A stretch of DNA of 64,000 nt from Tetrahymena thermophila SB210 (Eukaryota > Ciliophora > Oligohymenophorea > Hymenostomatida > Tetrahymenidae): contig NW_002476376.1 in assembly GCF_000189635.1 (NCBI RefSeq), forward strand, positions 2,004 to 66,003. The letters are read 5' to 3'. Below, piece after piece: positions 1-64,000 of the stretch. Under the pieces are notes generated by a model, which worked only from the letters and a program-made list of their open reading frames with translations, was not told the DNA's origin and made no database searches. Numbering within the stretch: position 1 is the stretch's first letter; the number at the start of each line of letters is the position of its first letter. The translations under genes and the position numbers were made by a program.

Positions 1-84
1 AATCCTTAAAATATTCTTTACTAACTGGTTTATCAAATAATTTGTTTTATTCACCTACTACATGTCAAAATTTTTACACTCTTT

Positions 85-770
85 TTTGAATATGATAGTT
101 AATTCAGAATTTATTTTCTCATCAAAAATCATTCTAAAATATTAATTACTCCCTATTTTGAATATGAAAGTTAATTCAGCATTTATTTTCTCATCAAAAA
201 TCATTTTAAAATATTAATTACAGTCTATTTTGAATGAATATGAAAGTTAATTCAGCATTTATTTTCTCATCAAAAATCATTCTAAAATATTAATTACACG
301 CTATTTTGAATATGAAAGTTAATTCAGCATTTATTTTCTCATCAAAAATCATTCTAAAATATTAATTACTTGCTATTTTGAATATGAAAGTTAATTCAGC
401 ATTTATTTTCTCATCAAAAATCATTCTAAAATATTAATTACACTCTATTTTGAATATGAAAGTTAATTCAGCATTTATTTTCTCATCAAAAATCATTCTA
501 AAATATTAATTACCTCCTATTTTGAAAATGAAAGTTAATTCAGCATTTATTTTCTCATTAAAAATCATTCTAAAATATTAATTACACTCTATTTTGAATA
601 TGAAAGTTAATTCAGCATTTATTTTCTCATCAAAAATCATTCTAAAATATTAATTACTATCTATTTTGAATATGAAAGTTAATTCAGCATTTATTTTCTC
701 ATCAAAAATCATTCTAAAATATTAATTACTTCCTATTTTGAATACAAAAGATAATTTAATATTTATAATA
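85..770. repeat. 71-bp tandem satellite, about 10 copies
   Basis: Nearly identical units of about 71-76 bp recur around positions 90, 166, 242, 314, 385, 456, 529, 600, 671 and 743. A core such as AAAGTTAATTCAGCATTT is followed by a TCATCAAAAATCATT block. Internal copies differ mainly in a 4-6 base spacer just before CTATTTTGAA; the first and last copies are diverged. There is no coding frame. Confidence 0.95.
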
Positions 771-30900: not shown

Positions 30901-33900
30901 ACTTATTGTTCATATCCTTTTCAAAAATGAACTTTTTTAAAATAGAAACTTTAAATGGAAAATTACTTCCAAATTAAAATTCTACTGAAAATAAAGATTT
31001 AAATTGTTCTTTGGTTTATCCTTAATCAAGCGCATAATCTTCTGCTTTATCTTAGTGCATTTTATTAGAAACCCCTTCAAACTACTCAATTTAAATTACT
31101 CTTAAAACAGCTAATTTGAATTCAATAAGTGGTTGGAATAGCAAAGATATCTTTATAACAATAAATTCATTAGCGTTTTAGTAACTCCTTCCATCTAATA
31201 ATACTAAAATTTAGTTTACGCACTTCTCAAGTGATCAATATTTGTTAAGCTAATCTAATTATTTATTAAATAGCCAGTAAACAACTTCAAATGTATTTTA
31301 CTCAATAAATTAAATAAGTTCTGTCACTCAGTAAACAATAACTAGCTTTGTCTAAACAATTAAATTTGATTTTATTAAAATTTAATTTTTAATGTAAACC
31401 TTAATGTCTACTTTAGATTCTGGATTAAATTTAGCTATAAACTTTTCATAACAAGTCTATTTTAATGTTCAAACATTTTGTTCTTTGGATAATATTTGCT
31501 CTTAGAGTAGTCATCAAATAAAATGCAGTGTCTCTTCTGACGGATTTACTATCCTACTTAGTTAAATTGATTAAAATGCCTTTTGTTCTCCACCTGTTTT
31601 GACTAACTTTGTAATTTGCAAATATTATTTAAATTTTGTTTATTAAGTTTAATCAGATAAAAACCCCTATTAATTTTAAAATTTTTAATCAAATATTAAT
31701 ATACAAAAATTTGTTAAAAATTACTGGGATTAAAATTATATTTTATTTATTTATTAACTATTTATCAATTAAATATTATTAAATATATTAATTTATTTTA
31801 AAATAATAATTTTATTTCAAAAAGAATATCACAATTCATAATCCTGAAATAAATAACTAAAATTCAACAGGAGGTGCTGCTTAATCAATAGCAATTAATT
31901 GGAATTTAACAAGCACTACAAGCTCTTAAACTCTTTTGTCGGGACACACTTCATTAACTACCAACACCTCCTAATGTCCTTAACCTCACTGCGCCACTTG
32001 CACATCTCCTCCATCCATTTGCATTCACTGCACCCAAGGCTATTATTTACTTCCAGATCAAAACTCATGCGTCCAGACTTGTCCACCTCCAACAGTCGCT
32101 CATCAACAAACAGCTACTTGCCAGCCATGCTTCCAGCACCAAGAGTGTCTTCAATGCCAGTCTCAAAACCCAGCTGCTTGCACCTCATGTTCTCCCACCT
32201 ATTCCCTCAATTCCACTCTCCTCCCCTATTGCTACGTGCCTCTTCCTCCTTCTAGTAGCGCTTCTTCCTCCGTCACCAAGGATGTTGTCAATCGCACGCC
32301 TTCTAACTCAACCTTTTCAGGAGCACTCAATCGACCTGAGCCAGGACAGCCCTCACAAAAGTAGCAGTAGCAGTAGTAGTAGTAGTAGCAGCAGGAGCAG
32401 CAGCAACAACAAGAACAACAACAGCAGGAGGCCCAAGCTAGCGATCAGCGAGGCTTTGCTCATTTCTTAGCTCAAACCAAGTCTTATACGAAAGGCTTTA
32501 TTTTGACACTGCTGATTCCCCTCTCAATACTCGGTGCTTGCCTCACTAGGCTAGTCACCTTTTGTCTGAAAAAGCGAGAAAAGAAGGTGCATCCACCACT
32601 GCCTAGTGAATCGAGGAGTGCACAGATTGCACAAAACTTGGATGAAAGGTAAGAAACACAAAAAGATGGAAATGGTGGCGATGAAGAACAGATGAGAGCG
32701 TCTTCGAGGGTAGACACAGCAAATATGTGTCCTCTGAACTCAAGAAGAGGCGAGTAGTTATAATTGGAAGGTGTGCAGTAATAAAGCGATGGTGGTGTTG
32801 GTGGTGGGGAAAGTGAAGGAAACGGGTATTTAGCGTTCTGCTGGATAGCAGTGATCCTTTTGTTGGGAAATGTGGGTGATTTAGTAGAGGTGCCTTATAT
32901 TATCTTCTCACAGTAGAACTCGTTTTCTAACAAAAGCACAACAAATGTATTTGACTTGTAATTTTCAGAAGCAGACATGGGCTAGATTTGTTGTTTGAGC
33001 TACATCGCACTAAACGCAGTTTGCTACTTGATCTGCGTCGTAATGATGGTAAAGGCTATAATTTTTGAGACTGGAAGTGGTGAGCCTCTGTTTTGTATTT
33101 ACGAAGTGAAGCTGAGTAGCAGTAGCAGTTTTTGTGGAGAAGAAATGAAGAAGGATAAAAGTGAAGCTGCTGCGTGCAAAGGGGATTCGAATGCTTAGAA
33201 TGAGAATGGAGAGAAGCACAAAAAAGTGTTGAGTGGGCGAAAGCTATGGAAGCTAATAATAGATGTTTTCTTGAGATGTCTGGTAGTTGTTGGTGGAAAA
33301 GCTTTCTGCATGGTTTATTCAAACGTGGCAAATGTAAAGGGATGGTTAACATGCTAAGTAGATAAAAATTTGAGAGCATTTAGATTGTTCTATATGACTT
33401 TGTGCATCCATGCAATCTTCAATATGATATCAGCAGTATTCTTTACTCTCATGCTTACTCATTTCTCCTTTGCTTCTTGGACTGCAGTAGCACAAGATAG
33501 CCTTACAAGCTAAGGTAGCGATGGTGGAGTCGAATTTTCGTTCTTTGTTGACATCCTTGCATTTAAATTTTTAATGTCTCTGATTTGTTTTTTGAACTGC
33601 CTGCATATCTAACAGCTAATTAGTGCCTGCAAATCTCCTAATCTTCCTGGACCCTAAAATCCCGTTTCCCATCGACTCTAAAGCCCATCTACTCCTTCTT
33701 CTTCCGCATCACCTGCAGACGCAGTAGAAAGAGACGCTTGCAAAGTTTCATACTTTGAAAATACACCAAATGCTGCTGAAAAGACTACTCCAACTGCGGT
33801 AACGCTTGCCTCTTATCGCCAGCAAGAAACATCAGGAACTGGTTCTTAAAACCTCATAGAAGGTAGACCAAGGAGAAAAAAACCATCAAAGTTGAGTCTA

Positions 33901-34023
33901 TTGCTAAAAAGAGATTCAGGATAAAAATCTGGTAGTTCACTTTCATCTAGACAGCAAGAAACACCTTCGCCAAATTTGCCTTCCTACTCTCCTAATCTCT
34001 ACCCATCTCAAGCATACATTTGA
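27936..34023 (+). CDS. Large Cys-rich multi-membrane surface protein, paralogue B (multi-exon)
   Basis: Starts at ATG 27936 with a clear signal peptide (MQVYTLVFVLILLIRKNSAQ). Exon 1 runs to 28372, with a GTAAAATT...CAATAG intron to about 28430. Further exons across 28850-31650 encode repeated ectodomain modules with Cys pairs; several end in a motif like FVICK (28600, 31610). The last exon, about 31830-34023, is one frame and much richer in GC. It holds a Cys-rich module (CATCTSPPSICIHCTQGYY and following), a poly-Gln tract at about 32363-32430, helix ILTLLIPLSILGACL, and about five more helices including FCWIAVILLLGNVG, ALNAVCYLICVVMMVKAIIF and FLMSLICFLNCL. A Pro/Ser-rich cytoplasmic tail ends at TGA 34021-34023. 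It is homologous to the divergent gene at 20905-26055. Expected at the plasma or ciliary membrane; ligand and function unknown. Confidence 0.82.
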
Positions 34024-52959: not shown

Positions 52960-54700
52960 TATTTTGCTTGAATTAAAAAAAAAGTAATTAGTAGTAATTA
53001 AGAAGATTGATTTTGTTAATATGAAAAGTATTGATATTTTACATGCTTTTTTCTAATTATAAAATTATAAATAATTTATAGTAAATAGTAAGTAGTTTCC
53101 AATTAACTATTTTTGAAAATAGTAGCATATCATTTTTTTCATAAAATTAATTTATTTTTATATTCAGTAAGAAACAAAAATTTTTGGAATATAGCTATTA
53201 TGAATGGAATTAAATGAGTAAGATAAATTAAATTAATCAGTTTGTTTATTTGTTGCTTGAATTAAAAAAAAAAGTAATTAGAAATAACTAAGAAGATTGA
53301 TTTTGTTAAAATGAAAGTATTGATATTTTATATCCTTTTTTCTAATTATAAAATTATTAAAAATTTATAGTTAATAGTAAGTATTATCCAATTAACCATT
53401 TTTGAAAATAATAGCATATCATTTTTTTCATAAAATTAATTTATTTTTATATTCAGTAAGAAACAAAAATTTTTTGGAATATAGCTATTTAGAATGAAAT
53501 TAAATGAGTAAGATAAATTAAATTAATCAATTCGTTTATTTGTTGCTTTAATTAAAAAAAAAGTAATTAGAAATAACTAAGAAGATTGATTTTGTTAAAA
53601 TGAAAGTATTGATATTTTATATCCTTTTTTCTAAATATAAAATTATAAATAATTTATAGTTAATAGTAAGTAGTATCCAATTAATCATTTTTGAAAATAA
53701 TAGCATATCATTTTTTTCATAAAATTAATTTATTTTTATATTCAGTAAGAAACAAAAATTTTTTGGAATATAGCTATTTAGAATGAAATTAAATGAGTAA
53801 GATAAATTAAATTAATCAATTCGTTTATTTGTTGCTTTAATTAAAAAAAAAGTAATTAGAAATAACTAAGAAGATTGATTTTGTTAAAATGAAAGTATTG
53901 ATATTTTATATCCTTTTTTCTAATTATAAAATTATTAAAAATTTATAGTTAATAGTAAGTATTATCCAATTAACCATTTTTGAAAATAATAGCATATCAT
54001 TTTTTTCATAAAATTAATTTATTTTTATATTCATTAAGAAACAAAAATTTTTGGAATATAGCTATTATGAATGAAATTAAAGGAGTAACATAAATTAAAT
54101 AATCAATTTGTTTGTTTGTTGCTTGAATTAAAAAAAAAGTAATTAGAAATAACTAAGAAGATTGATTTTGTTAAAATGAAAGTATTGATATTTTATATCC
54201 TTTTTTCTAAATATAAAATTATAAATAATTTATAGTTAATAGTAAGTAGTATCCAATTAACCATTTTTGAAAATAATAGCATATCATTTTTTTCATAAAA
54301 TTAATTTATTTTTATATTCAGTAAGAAACAAAAATTTTTGGAATATAGCTATTATGAATGAAATTAAAGGAGTAAGATAAATTAAATTAATCAGTTTGTT
54401 TATTCGTTGCTTTAATTAAAAAAAAAGTAATTAGAAATAATTAAGAAGATTGATATTGTTAAAATATAAAGTATTGATATTTTTACATCTTAATTTCTAA
54501 TAATAAACTTATAAATAATTTAAGTTAATAGTAACTAGTATTCAGTTAACCCTTTTTGTCAATAATAGCATGTAATTATTTTCATAATGTTAATTTATTT
54601 TTATATTCAGTAAGAAAATAAAAATTTTTGGAATATAGATATTATGAATGAAATTTCACGATGTAAATAAGATAAATTAAATTAATCAGTTTGTTTATTT
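52960..54700. repeat. ~288-bp tandem repeat array, about six copies
   Basis: Units start with GCTTGAATTAAAAAAAAAGT or GCTTTAATT variants near 52966, 53254, 53541, 53833, 54120 and 54407. Internal landmarks are AAGAAGATTGATTTTGTTAA, ATAGCATATCATTTTTTTCA and TTTTTGGAATATAG. Inner copies are nearly identical and the last is diverged, so the array has been homogenised. Related copies occur in units 2 and 3. Confidence 0.93.
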
Positions 54701-57659: not shown

Positions 57660-58520
57660 ATCAGTAATTTATAAAAAATTAATTAGAAGTAATTAAGAAG
57701 ATTGATTTTGTTAAAATGTAGAGTATTGATATTTTTATATTTTATTTTCTAATAATAAAATTATAAATAATTTAAGTTAATAGTAATTAGTATTTAATTA
57801 ATAATTTTTACCAATAATAGAATATAATTGTTTTCATAAAATTAATTTATTTTTATATTTAGCAATGAAAAAAAATTTTGAAATATAGATATACATTATG
57901 AATGAATTATATAGATGTAAGTAAGATAAATATTATTTATTTATAGCTTGAATTTAAAAAAAAGTAATTCGAACAAATTAAGAAGATAGATTTGTTAAAA
58001 TATAAAGTAATGATATTTTTACATCTTATACTCTAATAATTAAATTATAAATAATTTAAGTTAATAGTATATAGTATTCAATAAAACATTTTTGTCAATA
58101 ATAGCATGTAATTGTTTTAATAAAATTAATTTATTTTTATATTCAACAATAAAAAAAAATTTTTGAAATGTAGATAAATATTATTAATGAAATTTATAGA
58201 TGAAAGTAAGATAAATTAAATTAATCAGATTATTTATAGCTGGAATTTAAAAAAAAATAATTAGAACTAATTAAGAAGATTGATTTTGTTAAAATATATA
58301 GTATTGATATTTTTACATCTTATATTCTAATAATAAAATTATAAATAATTTAAGTTACTGGTAATTAGTATTCAGTTAACCATTTTTGTCAATAATAGCA
58401 TGTAATTGTTTTATTAAAATTAATTTATTTTTATATTCAGCAACAAAAAAAATTTTTGGAATGTAGATATATATTACGAATGAAATTAAATGATATCATT
58501 CAGTAAGTAAGATAAATTAA
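57660..58520. repeat. ~285-bp tandem repeats, three diverged copies
   Basis: Copies begin near 57676, 57950 and 58235. They match the 52960-54700 family by AAGAAGATTGATTTTGTTAA, TAATTTAAGTTAATAGTA and AATTTATTTTTATATTCAGC, but differ from one another far more than those of unit 1. Confidence 0.9.
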
Positions 58521-59194: not shown

Positions 59195-59780
59195 GTAAAA
59201 AATTAATTAGAAGTAATTAAAGAGATAGATTTTGTTAAAATATAAAGTATTGATATTTTTGCTTTTTATTTTCTTATTATAAAAATAAATAAATAATTTA
59301 AGTTAATAGTAAGTAGTATTCAATTAACCATTTTTATAAATAATAGCAAGTAATTATTTTCATAAAATTAATTTATTTTTATATTCAGCAACAAAAAAAA
59401 TTTTTTAATGTAGATATATATTATGAATGAAATTTATAGATGTAAGTAAGATAAAATAAATTAATTAATCAGTTTGTTTATTTGTTGCTTGAATTAAAAA
59501 AAGTAATTAGAAATAATTAAGAAGATTGATTTTTTTAAAATATTAAGTATTGATATTTTTACATCTAACTTTCTAATAATAAAATTATAAATAATTTTAA
59601 GTTAATAGTAAGTTGTATTCAATTAACCATTTTTGTCAATGATAGCTTGTACTTATTTTCATAAAATTAATTTATTTTTATATTCAACAACAACAAAAAA
59701 AAATTTTTGGAATGTAGATAAATATTATCAATGAAATTAAATGATGTAAGTATGATAAATTAAATTAATTAGCTTGTTTC
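59195..59780. repeat. ~290-bp tandem repeats, two copies (internal duplication of unit 2)
   Basis: Two more copies of the ~290-bp family, beginning near 59205 and 59490. A tail (59780-60290) matches 58545-59060, so a repeat-plus-tail segment of about 1.2 kb was duplicated inside unit 2. Confidence 0.85.
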
Positions 59781-61043: not shown

Positions 61044-61964
61044 TCAGAATAAAGACATTAAAATAAAAATGAGTGATATAAAAAGAGTGTTTATTGAGCC
61101 ACTAGTAGTGATGGAACATGAACTTACACCATCTGTAGGACCAGATGTTCCTTATGGGCATACACAAGCAGTTACAGTAGTAGATCCAGCTGGAGAGGTA
61201 CGATTATTAGTGCAAGAAGTGCAAGAAGTAGCACCTTAAGCAGAGTAAGTATTAACAGCACATTTATTACAACCTGATCCATTACCATCTGTATCAAATG
61301 ATGATACACTATATGAGCCAGCAGGACAGGCCTTAAGAGTAACAGTACAAACAGATTAATCTGTTCCTTTAGTTTAAGTTGTAGGAGTTGATGTACCTGC
61401 AGTACAAAGAGTACATCCAGTTCCAGATCCGTCTCTATCAAATCCTGAGACAGAATAGTTACCTTTAGCACAAGCTTTAAGAGTAATAGTACAAACAGAT
61501 GAATCTGTTCCTATAGTTTAAGTATTAGGAGTTGATGTGCCTGTAGTACAAGAACTACATCCAGCTCCAGATCCATCTGTATCTAAACCTGAGGAAGAAT
61601 AACTACCTTTAGCACATGCTTTAAAAATAACAGTACAAACAGATTAATCTGTTCCTTTAGTTTAAGTATTAGGAGTTGATGTACCTGCATTACAACTTTA
61701 ACAAGAAAGTCCAGGTCCACTATAATTAAAACCTGAAGAGCTATATTATCCTTTAGGGCATGCTTTAATTGTACATACATTTTGAGACATTCCAAATGTC
61801 CCAACACCATTTGTACATAATCCATTAGGGCAGTTGCTACATGGACCTAATTAGTTGTCGCCACTAGGGCTATATGTACAAATAGGACAGGGAGAAGGAG
61901 ATTGAGAGAGAACAACTTTTAAGAAGCATAACACTGCTATAAAAGCAAATAGTTTTTTATTCAT
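61044..61964 (-). CDS. GPI-anchored Cys-rich surface (immobilization) antigen, copy 3 (306 aa)
   Basis: Intronless frame, ATG 61964 to TGA 61044. Same plan as the other two: signal peptide MNKKLFAFIAVLCFLKVVLS, CPICTY N-terminal module, three internal repeats (CQSCNAGTSTPN, CSSCTTGTSTPN, CTLCTAGTSTPT), the shared CNKCAVNTYSAQ module, and a hydrophobic GPI signal (FISLIFILMSLF). It is the shortest copy. The last ~90 residues are almost identical among the three genes, while repeat number is 6, 4 and 3. The reading frame is intact, but its upstream element is cut off 190-240 bp before the ATG, so its promoter may be altered. Confidence 0.92.
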
Positions 61965-62154
61965 TTATTAATATTTAAGATTTAGTAATTTATTTAATTA
62001 ATTATTATTTATAATTTAATTTATTATTTTTTTATAATTAATTAAGTGCTAAACACTTGTTAAAATAATCGATTAATTTTTAATTAATTAAGTATCTAAT
62101 TCCCTGTTTTTATATTTAATTAGATAATATTTTCAAAAATTGTAATGTAATATT

Positions 62155-62204
62155 TCAAATCAAATGGGAGTTAAATTTTTATTGGACCTTTTTAAGGCGA
62201 ATAA
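62155..62204 (-). promoter_or_regulatory. Truncated copy of the antigen upstream element
   Basis: Only the proximal half, ATGGGAGTTAAATTTTTATTGG then TTTTTAAGGCGAAT, is left at the position equivalent to the elements at 52735 and 57455; the distal CTCTCCAATCA arm is absent. Confidence 0.45.
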
Positions 62205-62269
62205 AAAATATTTAAAATTTTAATTTTATAAAATGAAACTTGCTTTTTGTAAATTTGTATGGTAGCTTA

Positions 62270-64000
62270 TTCTATTTAATGATATATTTTTTCTTCATTT
62301 TTTCCTTCTAATTAACTATTTAATGATATATTTTTTCTTCAATATTTAAAAAGTAACAAATAAATTGGTGATGAAGGTGCATCAAGCTTAGGTTCTGCTT
62401 TAGCAAATTGCATTAATCTCTCAGATTTGACACTTTACCTTAGGTAAAAACAATTTATTTGTTTTTGATTGTGATATTTTTAATTATAAAAACTAATTAA
62501 AAACAATAAAGCTCTTTTTTCTTTTTCTTTTTATTGTGTTTGCTTTTTTTTTGTTCTTTCTTTGTTAATTTAGCTCATCATTTTATTTTCAACTTTTGCT
62601 TTTATTATTTATTTCTTATTATTTCATATTTTTTCTTCATTTTTTCCTTCTAATTAACTATTTAATGATATATTTTTTCTTCAATATTTAAAAAGTAACA
62701 ATTAAATTGGTGATGAAGGTGCATCAGGCTTAGGTTCTGCTTTAGCAAATTGCATTAATCTCTCAGATTTGACACTTTACCTTTAGTAAAAACAGTTTAT
62801 TTGTTTTGGATTGTGATATTTTTAATTATAAAAACTAATTAAAAACAATAAAGCTCTTTTTTCTTTTTGTTTTTATTGTGCTTGCTTTTTTTTTGTTCTT
62901 TATTTGTTAATTTAGCTCATCATTTTATTTTCAACTTTTGCTTTTATTATTTCATATTTTTTCTCATTTTTTCCTTCTAATTAACTATTTAATGATATAT
63001 TTTTTCTTCAATATTTAAAAAGTCAAAATTAAATTGGTGCAATTGGTGCATCAGGCTTAGGTTCTGCTTTAGCAAATTGCATTAATCTCTCAAATTTGGC
63101 ACTTCACCTTGGGTAAAAATAATTTATTTGTTTTGGATTGTGATATTTTTAATTATAAAAACTAATTAAAAACAATAAAGCTCTTTTTTCTTTTTATTGT
63201 GCTTGCTTTTTTTTTTGTTCTTTCTTTGTTAATTTAGCTCATCATTTTATTTTCAACTTTTGCTTTTATTATTTCATATTTTTTCTTCATTTTTTCCTTT
63301 AATTAACTATTTAATGATATATTTTTTCTTCAATATTTAAAAAGTGATAATTAAATTGGTGCAATTGGTGCATCAGACTTAGGTTCTGCTTTAGCAAATT
63401 GCATTAATCTCTCAAATTTGACACTTGACCTTTGGTAAAAACAATTTATTTGTTTTGGATTGTGATATTTTTAATTATAAAAACTAATTAAAAACAATAA
63501 AGCTTTTTTTTCTTTTTCTTTTTATTGTGTTGCTTTTTTTTTGTTCATTCTTTGTTAATTTAGCTCATCATTTTATTTTCAACTTTTGCTTTTATTATTT
63601 ATTTCTTATTATTTCATATTTTTTCTTCATTTTTTCCTTCTAATTAACTATTTAATGATATATTTTTTCTTCAATATTTAAAAAGGTCTAATTAAATTAG
63701 TGATGAAGGTGCATCAGGCTTAGGTTCTGCTTTAGCAAATTGCATTAATCTCTCAGATTTGACACTTTACCTTTAGTAAAAAAGTTTATTTGTTTTGGAT
63801 TGTGATATTTTTAATTATAAAAACTAATTAAAAACAATAAAGCTCTTTTTTCTTTTTGTTTTTATTGTGCTTGCTTTTTTTTTGTTCTTTCTTTGTTAAT
63901 TTAGCTCATCATTTTATTTTCAACTTTTGCTTTTATTATTTATTTCTTATTATTTCATATTTTTTCTTCATTTTTTCCTTCTAATTAACTATTTAATGAT
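62270..64000 (+). repeat. ~322-342-bp tandem exon+intron units
   Basis: The entire unit, 90-nt LRR exon plus ~232-252-nt intron, is repeated. Periods are 342, 327, 322 and 341 bp. Introns share blocks such as TTGTGATATTTTTAATTATA, AACAATAAAGCTC, TTAATTTAGCTCATCATTTT and TTAACTATTTAATGATATAT. Intron identity is as high as exon identity. The array continues past the window end. Confidence 0.95.
62354..63775 (+). CDS. Leucine-rich-repeat protein, five tandem 90-nt LRR exons (partial)
   Basis: Exons at 62354-62443, 62696-62785, 63023-63112, 63345-63434 and 63686-63775 are each exactly 90 nt, begin after AAAAAG and end before GTAAAAA. All are in the same phase, so any number can be spliced in frame. 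Each encodes one 30-residue repeat such as NQIGDEGASGLGSALANCIN then LSDLTLYL, the ribonuclease-inhibitor-type LRR consensus (LxLxL-xxN-xIGxxGaxxLgxaLanC). Variants include IGAIGASGLG and IGAIGASDLG. The gene continues beyond the window; no start exon is visible on the left, where surface-antigen DNA ends at about 62200. In ciliates such LRRs often accompany kinase or other domains, but nothing here says which. It could also be an exon-array fragment rather than a working gene. Confidence 0.78.

Follow-up and report, generated by a model that had tools for sequence, protein, structure and literature searches.

Which kind of gene does the array of leucine-rich-repeat (LRR) exons at the end of this stretch of Tetrahymena DNA belong to, and what makes its repeats differ? 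The window, meaning the whole 64,000-nucleotide stretch that was analysed (C161:2004-66003), holds five tandem units in the array region 62267-64000, spaced 322-342 nt apart and reported by TRF with a score of 2872 and 92% matches. Each unit has one exon of exactly 90 nt, bounded by AG and GT and without an in-frame TGA when read by ciliate code 6, and with TAA and TAG read as Gln the unit consensus is ~NxQIGDEGASGLGSALANCINLSNLTLxL. Each LRR exon opens with one base and closes with two bases of a split codon, which by reading frame makes the introns phase 2. Unit 1 (62354..62443) is followed by a 252-nt phase-2 intron running from GTAAAA to AAAAAG (62444..62695), unit 2 (62696..62785), a 237-nt intron (62786..63022), unit 3 (63023..63112), a 232-nt intron (63113..63344), unit 4 (63345..63434), a 251-nt intron (63435..63685), unit 5 (63686..63775) and another 251-nt intron (63776..64026) that crosses the window end at 64000, all on the plus strand. 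Pfam matched the five-unit peptide to LRR_6 (E 5.7e-13; 48.3 bits against a curated cut-off of 23.4) and, at 28.3 bits, just passed the DUF6180 cut-off of 26.9, a match that we take to be a side hit driven by the repeats. The six-unit peptide matched 13 PDB sequences at E <= 0.001, with the LRR protein 9y6s on top.

The genome that contains the window (101 Mb in 445 contigs) is most likely the macronucleus of T. thermophila: its telomerase gene matches PDB 6d6v, the TERT of that species, with no mismatch along two stretches of ~100 and ~130 residues, and the flanking residues resemble translated intron. The repeat kind has been described before. As far as the text of Xiong et al. 2019 (PMC6564038) was available, it reports tens of thousands of 90-bp LRR exons in Tetrahymena, in arrays of at least 3 exons with variable unit number and nucleotide-level repeats, phase-2 introns for more than 96% of the 90-bp exons, introns of ~257 bp in T. 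thermophila group III genes, and 1,874 LRR genes in T. thermophila. The array resembles the group III genes described there in having exactly 90-bp exons, at least three in a row (6/6 units), phase-2 introns (5/5 between the six exons, by reading frame), nucleotide-level repeats and intron lengths of 232-252 nt, near the 257-bp peak. Among relatives that were fetched by similarity, the median intron was 252.5 nt (102 introns). Judged by these sequence features, the array is a young, group-III-type, six-unit member of the Tetrahymena 90-bp-exon LRR family. The claim of an earlier sequence-only reading, that every unit holds one phase-symmetric exon of exactly 90 nt, was borne out in 6/6 exons and 5/5 introns by reading frame, and it follows that units can be gained or lost without breaking the frame. 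Since PMC6564038 already contains the repeat kind and proposes unequal crossing over and, as a possibility, retrotransposition, the main idea of that reading had been published.

The gene continues past the window. The five consecutive units seen there are followed by a sixth at 64027-64116 in window numbering (C161:66030-66119, plus strand) and then by a terminal exon on the same strand, which codes FSPMNESQKFKVLSKFLKSKRLVVFYF (64336-64416) and closes with Q and TGA. The 540 bp after unit 6 encode KVLSKFLKSKRLVVF and a TGA stop. When 40 loci were scored among 920 first-look candidates, all 39 others matched these 540 bp at 87-94% over at least 510 bases, and a truncation of the array at both ends was rejected on the 3' side because this family 3' end is present. 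A diverged version of the KVLSKFLKSKRLVVF end also follows a second LRR array (C161:78411-84131). That second array, on the same strand at C161:78007-84377, is older, with 16 readable 90-bp exons, a terminal exon, and exon divergence about equal to its intron divergence.

The upstream side was examined with a query spanning 61960-62353 of the window. Positions 242-394 of this query matched 14 other LRR loci at 83-86%, which places the start of homology at ~62201, and positions 1-244 (three loci) or 1-218 (one locus) matched spacers of cysteine-rich genes on C161 at 80-87%. In these alignments the two homologies meet at 62201-62203, and the segment 62201..62353 (plus strand, ending in AAAAAG) corresponds to the 3' part of a putative family intron 1. 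Six fetched relatives share ~900 bp further upstream (82-90%), and this stretch includes a conserved first exon, MIQQIKKYYNLEQVIINFFINILQ..., which we read as ending in phase 2. A tblastn search with the exon-1 peptide found it at nine fetched loci with E <= 1e-4, two of these in pieces or partly, and one relative (C92) carries exon 1, 14 units and the terminal exon in that order. Before the second C161 array the match was weak (E 8e-4, split over two frames); before the window array tblastn returned nothing, and the best other match in C161:2004-89999 had E 0.31. The start exon common to the relatives, a family mark of our own and not one of PMC6564038, thus distinguishes the group III relatives that carry it from the window copy.

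Because no start exon was found upstream and a cysteine-rich-gene spacer reaches up to the joint in its place, the copy looks 5'-truncated unless a new start is used, and on this sequence evidence it is probably a truncated gene. The sequence-only reading had asked whether the adjacent contig would show the remaining domains or no open gene, a dead array; the contig supplied six units and an intact 3' end that includes the terminal exon and its TGA, so the latter outcome applies only to the upstream half, where the family start exon was not found. The copy might instead be live, with a new start at ATG 62233 and a donor at 62262, possibly making use of the promoter region of the opposite cysteine-rich gene. 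Sequence and alignments allow such a candidate start exon at 62233..62261 (plus strand, GTAGCT donor, phase 2), since the 29 nt from ATG to donor are in frame with unit 1 and the reading frame stays open through all six units and the terminal exon. We consider a live copy of this kind unlikely, as the matching segment of the relatives falls after exon 1 and before the first 90-bp exon and is thus a presumed intron, and as the phase fit hangs on 16 nt of the relatives that are absent here, which could be chance. For the same placement in the relatives, ATG 62233 was downgraded as a start exon. Nor do we favour the idea that the missing 5' part reflects something other than germline truncation, either removal of the start exon in the macronucleus linked to an internal eliminated sequence (IES) or an assembly misjoin. 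Group III LRR genes are associated with IESs according to the available text of Xiong et al. (PMC6564038), but both sides of the joint keep their own-family homology to within ~3 bases of it; this observation is not decisive, and we give the idea a low probability.

The spacer upstream of the array belongs to a cysteine-rich gene outside the LRR gene, at 61044..61964 on the minus strand. Its 306-aa product resembles a surface protein in that it carries CxxC motifs, begins much like a signal peptide and is hydrophobic at its end. The gene is one of five cysteine-rich paralogues, all on one strand and with 144-nt repeats, that form a cluster at C161 ~52.4-74.3 kb (in the window from ~50.4 kb), and spacers of this cluster contain a tandem AT-rich repeat of 284-299 bp (window 52964-54700, 57666-58486 and 59197-59768); TRF listed no such AT-rich arrays in the spacer where the LRR array lies. 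Pfam had no match for the 61044-61964 protein or for two frames overlapping the paralogues, and among 18 window proteins searched it matched the array peptide and not the other 17. One non-array window protein was compared with PDB and had no match. Elsewhere, window 32001-34000 stands out at 43% GC, against 15-30% in the other 2-kb steps, with long frames on both strands, two of which had no Pfam match, and window 74-756 is a 72-bp tandem repeat of 9.4 copies with 93% matches.

The sequence-only reading had described the introns as being as conserved as the exons. Within the window array they are more conserved: 59 of 2387 aligned positions differ among the 10 pairs of five introns (2.5%), compared with 101 of 900 positions among the 10 pairs of exons 1-5 (11.2%). 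The six exons have 20 variable columns, of which codon positions 1, 2 and 3 hold 9, 5 and 6, and for the array pN is 0.109 and pS 0.065.

Comparison with the fetched loci extended this pattern. These loci gave 146 distinct exon-like hits, 131 of them readable as exactly 90 nt, and the other 15 were left out before counting; no in-frame TGA occurs in 133 exons from 30 arrays at the fetched loci. Eight of the 30 arrays had fewer than three units, leaving 22 for comparison, of which 16 are young (intron divergence <0.08; 84 units). Exons were more divergent than introns in all 16 young arrays, with medians of 0.127 and 0.035, and pN exceeded pS in 14, the exceptions by pN/pS being C298 (0.56) and one C427 array (0.73). 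The other arrays comprise two without two usable introns (C316 and C355; pN/pS 1.28 and 1.03), one mis-registered array (C92:23107) and three older arrays with intron divergence of 0.24-0.33, similar exon divergence and pN/pS of 0.79-0.93. As the older arrays have no clear exon excess, this excess is a property shown for young arrays only. Five loci fetched later yielded 25 hits, 21 of exactly 90 nt, and exons were again more divergent in 4/4 arrays with at least two usable introns. Among the relatives, some exons in C181 and C120 cannot be read as 90 nt, through one-base loss or internal duplication, so part of the LRR family may be decaying.

Within the exons, the excess is concentrated in few codons. 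In 63 units from young arrays, the exon framework differs at 0.052 and the introns at 0.056, an equality that is reached only when codons 1, 6, 7, 28 and 30 are set aside; the 15 columns of those codons differ at 0.526. Framework distances correlate with those of the adjacent introns (Mantel r 0.38 for the upstream exon and 0.37 for the downstream exon, p <= 0.001, 63 units), and the variable columns are decoupled from the introns (r -0.05, p 0.78); as units share descent, these permutation p-values, like the one given below, are not independent tests. Equal and correlated framework and intron distances mean that exon-intron units travel together. We read this as recent or concerted copying of repeats, joined by what would be diversifying selection at the variable codons. 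If the introns are neutral, selection for difference is the simplest cause of a tenfold difference in divergence between sites a few nucleotides apart.

Where the exchange takes place is less clear. Repeated blocks of units are visible, for example in C303 and C241. Framework distance within a contig (0.059) is not below that between contigs (0.051), and introns are only a little closer within (0.044) than between (0.057), so exchange across the whole family, or a recent common origin, is as good a fit as growth in place. The proposal that the array grows or is homogenised by exchange of whole units therefore stands as far as exon and intron travel together, and its local character is not clearly seen. 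For the same lack of smaller within-contig framework distances, ongoing exchange and recent clonal expansion are not told apart, and the latter could take the place of the former.

Three codons vary most, and they are not those that the sequence-only reading had singled out (DEGASG versus AIGASG, codons 6-7). In the young arrays, codon 1 takes 15 amino acids (3.55 bits; 84 units), codon 28 takes 16 (3.15 bits; 84 units) and codon 30 takes 14 (3.26 bits; 66 junctions). They are followed by codon 7 (2.1 bits, 9 amino acids), by codon 6, at which D or A predominates, and by codon 3, and 24 of the 30 codons stay below 1 bit. Variation is low at leucine codons 27 and 29 and at exon column 1. The phase-2 intron splits codon 30, whose third base is exon column 1 of the next exon and has 0.74 bits, between column 90 (1.70) and column 2 (1.78). 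In the protein the variable patch thus has the pattern LTL-X28-L-X30-X1-N, with X1 supplied by the next exon, and the 66 junctions contain 64 different X28-X30-X1 triplets. X30 is associated with the X1 on the other side of the intron (p 0.015), which indicates that shuffling is incomplete.

Substitution counts at these codons need a careful reading. At codon 30 pN is 0.534 and pS 0.107. This is the only one of codons 1, 28 and 30 at which pN clearly exceeds pS, codons 1 and 28 being synonymously saturated, and for codons 1, 7, 28 and 30 pooled, pS (0.495) is about as high as pN (0.529). Relative to column composition, codon 1 is depleted of A/V/P/T (1 observed, 11.1 expected) and of TGA (0 observed, 6.3 expected), and amino-acid usage at codon 28 shows no bias beyond composition. 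A genome-wide pattern search gave 1657 sites with codons 28/30 left free and 237 with codon 1 left free; controls gave 429 sites with codon 14 free and 831 with an intron triplet free, and the pattern read backwards gave none. Among the first 100 sites per pattern in contig order, the commonest codon made up 15% at codon 28 and 12% at codon 1, and the commonest triplet made up 90% at codon 14 and 89% at the intron triplet. Our searches of an open-access library turned up no statement of these hypervariable positions. The main text of PMC6564038 does not use the terms hypervariable, positive selection, diversifying or variable positions, and its sequence logos may show the pattern.

Two other causes of such variability were weighed against selection. 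Positions that are exposed and unconstrained might simply drift while the rest is conserved. High pS at the hypervariable codons is compatible with drift, as is the high Ka/Ks of young LRR genes (median ~0.4, read as relaxed purifying selection in the available text of PMC6564038), but if the introns evolve neutrally, drift cannot run about ten times faster than they do, and we regard it as improbable. A mutation process targeted near exon ends would explain why codons 30 and 1 flank the intron, why synonymous change is high at the pooled codons and why intron position 10 varies too (1.11 bits). Such a process should not spare codon 29, the seven intron bases next to the donor, all low in variation, or exon column 1, which lies below both its neighbours; nor would it deplete codon 1 of A/V/P/T and TGA, and a mutator that alternates with the LxLxxN pattern of the protein is hard to imagine. 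We hold this explanation to be very improbable.

We therefore favour, at a probability of roughly two in three, the reading in which the window array is a truncated member of the known family and the family serves as a germline-encoded recognition repertoire shaped by unit copying and by selection on three codons. Copying and exchange of whole exon-intron units would keep the exon framework and introns nearly identical, while diversifying selection, as the putative cause of the hypervariability, would keep codons 28 and 30 and codon 1 of the next exon diverse. With codon 30 divided by the intron, any crossover within an intron would place X28 and most of X30 of one unit beside the X1 of another, and so could make a new contact patch with no change of frame. 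We infer that the generation of diversity in this family would run through such crossovers. Tentatively, and at less than even odds, the family may hold thousands of germline LRR units with a recognition patch split by an intron, in which crossovers within near-identical introns mint new specificities as the frame is kept.

Variable residues of the xxLxLxx type are concave and solvent-exposed in LRR proteins (PMC3510248, as available), and codons 1, 28 and 30 appear to map to this surface. The LRR domains of plant NLRs such as flax L5/L6 are likewise diverse at xxLxLxx solvent-exposed residues, according to the same text. Plant NLRs differ in being NB-ARC receptors, whereas the five-unit peptide had no Pfam match beyond LRR models and, weakly, DUF6180. 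In the Podospora NWD genes het-d/het-e (PMC1805685, as available), WD repeats evolve in concert within and between genes, and four codons per repeat are under diversifying selection at the interaction surface. The LRR family is alike in having few hypervariable codons amid near-identical repeats, a likeness in how it works and not in membership; the Podospora repeats are fungal WD40 repeats with a known recognition role, whereas here the repeats are LRRs and the role is presumed, and the available text of PMC1805685 mentions no intron inside the variable patch. The most likely function of the LRR family is that of a germline-encoded repertoire for recognition, and its members may bind variable partners. 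Hypervariable codons support the earlier notion of modular recognition diversity, in which recognition is the presumed part. That a protist would have built, by exon shuffling, a recognition system like fungal and plant immune repertoires is a component of this joint reading that we put forward as possible, with somewhat less than an even chance.

The array itself is ordinary for Tetrahymena. The hypervariable triplet points to the likely concave LRR surface as the place to look for the function of the LRR genes, and residues X28, X30 and X1 offer a residue-level handle on binding to variable partners, be they food bacteria, pathogens or other cells. These findings suggest that one intron position could serve both frame-neutral exchange of repeats and the shuffling of contact residues.
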